Below are positions 55,779 through 58,897 of a stretch of DNA of 64,000 nucleotides, one piece after another (the first letter of the stretch is position 1; each line of letters starts with the position of its first letter). The position numbers were made by a program, and so were the translations under genes. The notes under the pieces were generated by a model. It worked only from the letters and a program-made list of their open reading frames with translations. It was not told the origin of the DNA and did not search any database. This DNA comes from Pseudoalteromonas carrageenovora IAM 12662 (GTDB taxonomy: Bacteria; Pseudomonadota; Gammaproteobacteria; Enterobacterales; Alteromonadaceae), in assembly GCF_900239935.1 (NCBI RefSeq), contig NZ_LT965929.1, positions 287,001 to 351,000 on the forward strand, read 5' to 3'.

Positions 55779-55885
55779 CAAGTTGCTCAAGTTCGTTCGT
55801 AAACTCACTGGGACAATTAACAGTTGGCTTGGCGCTTCGCGCAAGTTTAGCCAACAGTCAATTGCCCCTTAGCAAAGTGTTGGTA
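55773..55885 (+). repeat. attC site 2, interrupted at its core by the IS
   Basis: R'' core ATATAAC. GGGACAATTAACAGTTGGCT pairs with AGCCAAC-AGTCAATTGCCCC as a long inner stem, and the 3' core begins GTT at 55879-55881. The bases after GTT (GGTA) belong to the inserted IS. The original continuation (ATATTTACA) is found at 57455. Confidence 0.82.
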
Positions 55886-55895
55886 TGACTCCCAC

Positions 55896-56191
55896 TGTCA
55901 AGTTAAACGCACTGATCCCTGCCTAACTTTTTTAAGCCATAATTACTTTAGCTCGAATTAGAGCGAGTTAATACATAAGATGAAGCAAGTAATTTCGTCG
56001 GTTATCTTGCTGATATTCGTTGGTTATTACTATTTCTAGCAACAGAGCAGACCTTACTTATTCCGTCGTGGCACCTGTCTTCAGTCTATGTTCGTGGTTC
56101 AATGCAGCGTTAGCTGCATTGCCATCCTAACGCCGTCGGTGGTTGTGCCACACCCGATGCTTGATCCCATGCATTAACTCTAATTCGTTTA
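55896..56191 (-). ncRNA. Candidate guide (seeker/bridge) RNA region of the IS
   Basis: The non-coding 3' part of an IS1111-type element is where the guide RNA of this family is encoded. Visible structure: CAATGCAGC-GTTA-GCTGCATTG (56100-56121), a 9-bp stem, and a longer-range pair GTGGCAC (56068-56074) with GTGCCAC (56145-56151) enclosing it. On the plus strand CCTAACGCC (56126-56134) is the exact complement of the attC core GGCGTTAGG found at attC 3. Boundaries of any RNA are unknown. Confidence 0.5.
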
Positions 56192-57346
56192 TCATGCGGG
56201 TACTCTTGCCAATCTAAGTTTTGCGTTCACTGGCGTAAGTACCACTTCTTTTGCAATGGCCCATATGTACGCAATCATTTCTCGGGCAATTGCGGTGACA
56301 ACAAGGTTGTAGTGTTTCCCTTTGGCTATCATTTTTTTATAGCGCTTGCAGAGCCTAAGTTGTGCTTTCCACGCAATATCAATAATGTCCTTTGGTAAAC
56401 CTTCTTGTCGTTTTTGCATATCTGTCGATATATTTGCCGCATACCGATAAGTGTGTGCACCTTCAACGAGAAGGCGTCTTGCTCGGCCGTTTCCGCATTT
56501 TGTGATAGCGCCAATATGGCGTTTGCCACCACTCGAGTGTTCACTGGGTACAAGACCGAGATAACTCATTAATTTACGGGGATGGTCGAAGCGCGATAAA
56601 TCACCAAGCTCAGCTACAACGCCGGTGGCGACCAACAAGCGAACACCTCGCATTGCTTGTATTGCTTTAACAACGGGATAATAACGCCATTGATGGACGT
56701 GATGTGTTAGTTCATTGTCTAGTCTTTCAAGTCGGCTTATTCGCTCGGTAATTGTTTGTAAAAACTCCTGTAAGACAATGTGCTGCGCGGGATGTGGCAG
56801 CACAAGCTCAGTGAGCCAACGTAAATGTTTTTGTGACCAATTTGCGGTGCCTTTGTAATTAATATTATTGCGAAGCATCAACGCTTTTAATTGATATTTA
56901 GCATCTTTTAAATCTTCCATGGCTATTTCGCGTGCGCGAGATAAATCGCGTACGGCTTCATCTTCAGGCTCGGGAACATAGATAGGTGTTAAATCTTCAG
57001 ATTTAAGTAATTTAGCGAGCTTAAGGGCATCACGTTTATCGGTTTTAATCTTCTCGCCTGGTTTTTTAGGAATAAGAGACGGGGCAACCACATAACAGCA
57101 ATGGCCAAGGCTTGTGATTAATCTGTAAATCCAATAACCACAAGGGCCTGCTTCATAAACAAAGTGTAGCGTTGCGCCAGGGTATTTAGATTCAAACTGA
57201 CGAACAAGCTTTTGAACGGCCACTTTGGAAGAAGAAAATCGACCAAGGTGAACAGGTTGAGAGCCTCTATGTTCTTCAATATAGGCGACTTCATTGAATT
57301 CTTTATGTGTATCAAGTCCGATAAAAAGTATGCTATGTTTGTTCAT
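56192..57346 (-). CDS. IS110-family transposase (IS1111 type)
   Basis: 384 residues. The N-terminal RuvC-like DEDD domain has Asp12 (GLDTHKE), Glu65 (YEAGP) and Asp103/Asp106 (KTDKRDA). A coiled-coil middle part follows. The C-terminal Transposase_20 domain has MRGVRLLVATGVVAELGDLSRF, YLGLVPSEHSSGGKRHIG with the catalytic Ser at 271-272, and CGNGRARRLLVEGAH. All key residues are intact, so it should be active. It recombines DNA guided by an RNA from its own element and inserts without target duplication. This copy lies in an attC site. Confidence 0.93.
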   Translation of the reverse strand: MNKHSILFIGLDTHKEFNEVAYIEEHRGSQPVHLGRFSSSKVAVQKLVRQFESKYPGATLHFVYEAGPCGYWIYRLITSLGHCCYVVAPSLIPKKPGEKIKTDKRDALKLAKLLKSEDLTPIYVPEPEDEAVRDLSRAREIAMEDLKDAKYQLKALMLRNNINYKGTANWSQKHLRWLTELVLPHPAQHIVLQEFLQTITERISRLERLDNELTHHVHQWRYYPVVKAIQAMRGVRLLVATGVVAELGDLSRFDHPRKLMSYLGLVPSEHSSGGKRHIGAITKCGNGRARRLLVEGAHTYRYAANISTDMQKRQEGLPKDIIDIAWKAQLRLCKRYKKMIAKGKHYNLVVTAIAREMIAYIWAIAKEVVLTPVNAKLRLARVPA

Positions 57347-57473
57347 GTTAGCCTCTGCTGTTTAGTTAATTGACAAACTAATTATGGCTCTGGCTTTGAA
57401 TTAAGCTAACCCACGAAAAGCGGAGGCTAACACCGTGTGGGAGTCATTATGTCTATATTTACAAGGAGGTTTA

Positions 57474-57775: not shown

Positions 57776-57875
57776 ATATAACAAGCCATTCAAGAGGGAA
57801 AATTTACAGTTGGCTATTTTCACTCCGTTCAACATTATAGCCAACAATAAATTTCCCCTTAATGGGGCGTTAGGA
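57776..57875 (+). repeat. attC site 3
   Basis: Starts with core ATATAAC and ends with GGGGCGTTAGGA (core GTTAGGA). GGAAAATTTACAGTTGGCTAT pairs with ATAGCCAAC-AATAAATTTCC as the inner stem. TGTAAATATAAC is the exact complement of GTTATATTTACA, of which GTT (55879) and ATATTTACA (57455) now flank the IS. Confidence 0.88.
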
Positions 57876-58440: not shown

Positions 58441-58534
58441 CAAACGCATTAATAATGGACGTCTTTCGCTTGGCTGGCGCTCATTCTTCGCTAATTATAG
58501 CCAAGCTAATCCGCCCATTATGCGGGCGTTAGGT
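58435..58534 (+). repeat. attC site 4
   Basis: Starts with GCCTAAC, an exact RYYYAAC core, and ends with GTTAGGT. CAAACGCATTAATAATGG pairs with CCATTATGCGGG with an extrahelical base. CTTGGCT and AGCCAAG form the inner stem. 100 bases. It overlaps the stop of the preceding ORF. Confidence 0.9.
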
Positions 58535-58793: not shown

Positions 58794-58897
58794 TAAGTCG
58801 TTAAGCACAGAAGCGTAGACGGTCGCCATCATTTTTTCAGAAAACAAAAGGCGCAAAAACGCTATCAACCTATGCTCCGGTTAACGAGGCGTTAGCG
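58788..58897 (+). repeat. attC site 5, with altered R'' core
   Basis: R'' reads ACCTAAT, where the otherwise invariant last base of AAC is T. GTCGTTAA pairs with TTAACGAGG-type bases near the end, and the core is GTTAGCG. AACACCTAAT is complementary to GTTAGGTGTT at the cassette start except at that base. About 110 bases. Confidence 0.75.

Follow-up and report, generated by a model that had tools for sequence, protein, structure and literature searches.

The window, a 64-kb stretch of DNA, carries an IS1111-type insertion sequence (IS) on the minus strand at 55882-57454. Five full copies in the same genome have the same ends in different flanks, which fixes these bounds; the ends common to all five read AGACATA-ATGACTCCCAC and GTGGGAGTCAT-ACC. 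The arrangement is that of the IS1111 family, with a left subterminal inverted repeat ATGACTCCCAC (57437-57447, minus strand) preceded by a 7-base left extension, AGACATA (57448-57454), and a right subterminal inverted repeat GTGGGAGTCAT (55885-55895, minus strand) followed by a right extension, ACC (55882-55884), of the 3 bases usual for the family. The transposase gene (56192-57346, minus strand), found as an open reading frame, encodes 384 aa. Its translation matched PF01548 and PF02371, as a DEDD transposase of the IS1111 family does, as well as NF033542 (IS110 RNA-guided transposase), and contains the family motif GL-P----SG as GLVPSEHSSG in its C-terminal part. Between the gene and the IS end, on the transposase strand, lies the 3' non-coding region (NCR, 55896-56191), which is the longer of the element's non-coding regions. 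The accessible part of PMC11187229 describes the IS1111 family as having the GL-P----SG motif, a 7-base left extension, a longer downstream NCR, insertion without target bases added or lost, and a circular intermediate with an active junction promoter. Transposase matches in the genome number six, five of them full and at 100% protein identity, the other partial.

A -35 box, TTGACA, is located near the right end (55896-55901, minus strand) and in a circle would join the -10 box CATAAT (57446-57451) at a spacing of 17 bases, so that circularisation of the IS would build a predicted junction promoter. The same TTGACA/CATAAT arrangement was found in 72 of the 76 elements examined, out of 77 distinct places, and an active junction promoter has been reported for ISEc11 (PMC11187229, accessible part). 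From this arrangement we infer transcription from the promoter created on circularisation; the RNA would have the minus-strand sequence that follows the transposase gene and would probably be transcribed jointly with that gene.

Relatives of the element were gathered from two sources: 79 loci in named genomes, and the 71 genomes, out of 108 in the genus, that matched at E 0.001, many of these latter matches being distant or fragments. The 83 distinct NCR stretches obtained were thinned to 63, 15 with extra RNA inserts were excluded, and L002 and L005 (the window copy) were added to give an alignment of 50 sequences. On the transposase strand the NCR is predicted to form a structured RNA whose helices covary in these 50 relatives; its core is predicted at about 55964-56170 (minus strand) from the alignment, the covariation and covariance model matches. 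An earlier note on this DNA had described a 9-bp hairpin and a long-range stem here, and both were located. The outer long-range stem pairs 56159-56167 (5' arm) with 55978-55986 (98.5% of cells paired), and the hairpin, CAATGCAGC-TAAC-GCTGCATTG (56100-56121, arms 56113-56121 and 56100-56108), caps a target loop and has seven of eight modelled pairs changed on both sides. The closing stem of the target loop joins GTGGCAC (56145-56151) to GTGCCAC (56068-56074), with 98.0% of cells paired and five of seven pairs changed on both sides, and a second hairpin, GTTGCTA...TAGTAAT (56026-56043), shows such changes in six of seven pairs; all four helices are on the minus strand.

Across the five helices of the model (34 pairs), 96.6% of cells were paired and 22 pairs had changes on both sides. 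The covariation score was 0.470 against 0.193 for shuffled alignments (0/500 reached the observed value) and at most 0.128 for slid partners, a comparison tilted towards the structure, whose pairs had been taken from this very alignment; the covariation across homologues that the earlier note had proposed as a check is thus present. The fold of the single sequence was weak (z -2.09, equalled by 7/200 shuffles), and Rfam at gathering thresholds gave no matches across the window. Other small hairpin-like inserts were seen in the RNA of L008, L009, L071, L106, L118, L037, L057, L084, L042, L109 and L148, where they favour two or three places, on the 3' side of the closing stem or in the second loop.

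The candidate right target guide, GGCGUUA(GG), occupies 56126-56134 of the minus strand. As the RNA strand is the minus strand, the segment that appears as CCTAACGCC on the plus strand is read in the RNA as GGCGUUAGG, in the same sense as the top strand of the cassette, and its pairing partner is the bottom strand. It lies on the 5' side of the internal loop that is bounded by the stem 56145-56151/56068-56074 and by the hairpin 56100-56121; ACAU is across the hairpin from it. A guide so placed within a conserved fold is expected of a seekRNA or bridge RNA, and the segment does not fall outside the guide loops, which the earlier note had held would count against its proposal. From this position the guide can pair with T|AACGCC, the attC end occupied by the IS.

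Within the 64 kb, CCTAACGCC occurs three times, at 56126-56134 (plus strand) and, on the opposite strand, at 57866-57874 and 58525-58533; the expected count was 0.37, and none of 100 shuffles of the 64 kb gave three. The latter two are empty attC cores on the plus strand reading GGCGTTAGG, each an exact match to the guide by sequence, the match at 57866-57874 being 10 nt long. A third core (58888-58896) reads GGCGTTAGC and matches the guide complement at 8/9 positions. The exact complementarity to an attC core reported in the earlier note is therefore real, but it holds for two cores rather than one and is incomplete in the third. The occupied attC is broken after CAAAGTGTT (55873-55881, plus strand), where the IS begins, and resumes at 57455; its status as attC was assigned by eye. 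The window IS thus sits in an imperfect attC, T|AACACT, while two perfect cores of the same array are empty; against its own site the guide of L005 has a mismatch at +4 and a wobble at +6.

The nine-base match was rejected as stand-alone evidence: a 9-mer in common with an R' core arose in 264/2000 shuffles of the 296-nt region, which makes it weak on its own, and one in common with any part of the six attCs arose in 1439/2000. The case for a guide rests on the comparison with relatives. About 7 nt of the guide (GGCGUUA) are well supported, and the final GG pairs only where the attC reads CCT.

For this comparison a set of 111 was assembled, comprising 110 distinct places and a Klebsiella plasmid element added by hand; of these, 15 were excluded (10 with too short a right flank, five with a guide insert or no readable guide) and 96 were scored. 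At positions +3 to +6, 347 of 384 guide-target pairs were Watson-Crick against 329.6 on permutation (0/20000 reached the observed count, the permutations ignoring shared descent), and with one entry for each of the 19 distinct combinations the figures were 50/76 against 39.3 (6/20000). Plain GGCGUUA at AACGCC accounted for 68 of the 96 places, and the right flank was exactly AACGCC in 70, which is the R'-core insertion expected of the attC-targeting IS1111 group. All of +1 to +6 paired in 82 places, wobbles counted. The variant sites AACTTC and AACTTT face the guides GAAGUUA and AAAGUUA. When six different guides were set against their own targets, one target per guide and with L236 outside the set, 22/24 pairs at +3 to +6 were Watson-Crick, and among the 720 possible pairings only the true one reached that value. 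Guide-target covariation is thus shown by computation.

Several observations count against the guide reading. At least one pair at +1 to +6 failed in 14/96 places, namely seven sites at which the common guide faces A at +4, among them that of L005 in the window, together with L014, L025, L031, L034, L057, L076 and L143; the guide of L034 hardly pairs with its target. Five elements with an insert in the guide nevertheless lie at AAC sites. In these five (L015, L055, L129, L132 and L224) the insert of about 45 bases is placed between GGCGTT (GGCATT in L132) and TTAGG and begins GCCTACATGGATGTAGG or nearly so. TACATGGATGTAGGTAANNGGCG is a dispersed repeat in the window's own genome, present 16 times (13 exact). 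In L085 the guide region reads GGCAGGCGTTGGCTGG, a shifted guide beyond the reading rule. The relative L173 (NZ_CP095763.1, a K. pneumoniae IncC plasmid; 79.7% protein identity) is found next to arr-3, at an attC-like end within a class 1 integron region that has blaNDM-1 close by; the left guide of this element, AUCU, is identical to the flank on that side, ATCT. A test for attC-type folding of the flanks was dropped, as 80/100 flanks passed but so did 129/300 controls, and attC status was assigned by core motif and by eye.

The covariance model matched 35/394 genomes of the order and 6/369 of the class, the own genome included each time. Eighteen of 22 distant RNA matches were read, the remaining four being near-identical copies at AACGCC. 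A readable right end was present in 15 of the 18; 11 of these keep GGCGUUA, all at AACGCC, and in the other four the guide is lost or interrupted. At class level, L235 has the guide ACUGUUA at AACAGT; L237, L240 and L241 have UGGGUUA at AACCCG, AACCCG and AGCCCG; and L233 and L234 keep GGCGUUA, both at AACGCT. L236, with guide GACGUUA against a right flank GGCCAG, showed no match; it is kept as a miss and counts against the guide reading. L238 runs into a tandem partial copy.

These comparisons bear on two other accounts of the region. According to the first, the match arose by chance or is an attC fragment picked up by the element, and the transposase itself, unaided by an RNA guide, reads the attC hairpin in its folded state. 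The shuffle frequency for R' cores lends this some substance, and most flanks are attC-like, so that a hairpin-reading protein would land there too; the segment, on the other hand, has a fixed place in a covarying RNA, AACTTC and AACTTT sites face correspondingly different guides, and non-attC flanks accompany changed guides in the sister copies L002 and L003 and probably in L235. We consider this account very improbable. Scarcely any weight falls on the second, in which the conserved structure regulates the transposase mRNA from its 3' end, through decay or termination, and is no guide; the structure does follow the gene immediately and would share its transcript, but loop letters that track the flanking DNA, and the published role of the region in the IS1111 family, would be left unexplained.

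We are highly confident, instead, that the segment encodes the seekRNA or bridge RNA of an attC-targeting IS1111 element, whose target-loop guide GGCGUUA fixes insertion at the R' end of attC. The guide-RNA explanation of attC targeting put forward in the earlier note is supported by the covarying fold, by guide-target covariation in relatives and by one-base variants at non-attC targets. In the proposed mechanism a 7-bp stem would close the target loop, with the guide GGCGUUA 5' of the hairpin and the short left guide ACAU 3' of it; the transposase would bind this RNA, and pairing of GGCGUUA with T|AACGCC on the target strand, at the R' end of the integron attC, would fix both the place and the orientation of insertion in the reaction.

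The possible left target guide ACAU (56088-56091, minus strand) matches the left flank in the same sense, a correspondence whose weakness also counts against the guide reading. Among 87 places, left guide and flank were associated only at -2 (145/20000) and -4 (476/20000); -3 gave no signal and -1 hardly varies. The AGAC that follows the left guide is nearly constant. AUAUCAG (56010-56016, minus strand) resembles the circle junction ATACC|AG and is suggestive only as a possible donor guide. No significant association was seen in the main set between the RNA letter and the final base of the right end (p 0.135); when 14 distant elements were added, p was 2.8e-4, a value confounded by descent. 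In IS621, handshake guides match the recombination products (PMC11208158, accessible part). A candidate of that kind here, ACCAACG in the second loop, was dropped, relatives reading CCACG and CUACG.

Copies within the window's own genome differ in the guide. GGCGUUA goes with a right flank AAC in L001, L004, L005 and the partial L006, and GGCAUUA with a right flank AAT in L002 and L003, so that a change at guide base 61 is matched by one at target base +3. This one-base difference, found by computation like the fold, is the only one between the NCRs of L002/L003 and that of L005; outside the NCR they depart from L005 at three or four bases, three of them in common with L001. L001, L004 and L005 are at attC-like sites by eye. 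L002 lies inside a gene for a FadL-like outer-membrane protein and L003 inside uvrD, the halves of which match profile positions 1-237 and 238-715; the halves abut (237/238) and the frames are open across both joined gene sites, no target bases having been gained or lost at these two sites examined. An integron-integrase match over the cut-off, in pieces, lies at G000:C2:597397-602479, about 3 kb from L006 and far from the window's own cassette array.

A one-base guide change likely retargeted the sister copies, though this is not proven, because GGCGUUA could reach AAT by wobble and L148 shows such a site. AAT targets were found at 2/2 places with A61 against 1/94 others (Fisher p 6.6e-4). 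In a scan of the 108 genus genomes with the seven guide letters left free and up to two mismatches allowed, 46 matches were found in 22 genomes; 44 of them read GUUAGG, and the two exceptions are exactly L002 and L003. It is possible, although we find it rather doubtful, that G61A is a neutral change in L002 and L003, AAT being within reach of the ordinary guide through G-T wobble and the coincidence being due to chance or shared descent. GGCGUUA can pair with AATGTC and AATGCT through four Watson-Crick pairs and two wobbles, the ordinary guide stands at AATGCT in L148, a partial copy from elsewhere, and L002 and L003 are not independent, since they share other substitutions, also with L001. 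Neutrality fits less well with the rarity of AAT under other guides and the conservation of G in the genus scan, and the presence of the change at two different sites makes it likely that at least one move came after it.

The AAC core of attC is nearly invariant, so that one guide base would gate integron against the rest of the genome. We lean slightly towards a reading in which the single mutation GGCGUUA to GGCAUUA freed an integron-bound IS from attC and its lineage entered protein genes, splitting uvrD; the guide base would then act as the gate, with target range drifting base by base. The split uvrD, with L003, spans G000:C1:3439372-3443086. A search of the genome gave no other uvrD match above the cut-off, the next best being another helicase (550.8 bits), and the strain may therefore be a mutator.

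The attC-targeting seekRNA or bridge RNA system itself has already been published. Members of the IS1111-attC group reportedly insert at attC, as set out by Tetu and Holmes in 2008 and by Post and Hall in 2009, and the window element does likewise. In the accessible part of PMC11187229, attC is targeted by the seekRNAs of ISKpn4 and ISPst6 and by a predicted one of ISPa25, and IS1111 seekRNAs have the complement of the top strand first, 5' of the match to the bottom strand. The window element resembles these in its RNA region downstream of the transposase, its attC target and its guide order, a likeness drawn from the published description; it is a different element, hosted by Pseudoalteromonas and relatives, and its RNA is predicted from sequence alone, whereas those of ISKpn4 and ISPst6 were measured. 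As with the bridge RNA of IS621/IS110 (PMC11208160, PMC11208158, accessible parts), a guide, on the left only a possible one here, stands on each side of a hairpin-closed target loop and the transposase is of the DEDD type, its similarity to the solved IS621 transposase being marginal (E 1.3e-4); that bridge RNA, however, lies upstream of the gene and the RNA predicted here downstream, and the donor guide here, unlike that of IS621, is a suggestive candidate.

Natural redirection is described for ISEc11/ISXne4 and ISEc21/ISMch6, with transposases 72% identical (PMC11187229, accessible part). There, as here, changed guide letters accompany changed targets, but in the present case the copies belong to one genome, their transposases are 100% identical to the query and their NCRs are one base apart. 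In the literature searched, mostly the text of freely available papers without figures and supplements, no published case was found of sister copies within a genome whose guides had diverged by one base, and the likely within-genome one-base retargeting is the new part of this study.

The placement of this marine IS group at integron attC sites is thereby given a guide-RNA explanation backed by covariation, and the covariance model finds relatives with other guides. Sister copies one guide base apart, at matching different targets, are a natural experiment on retargeting, in which the target change of a programmable transposon can be tested with natural alleles.
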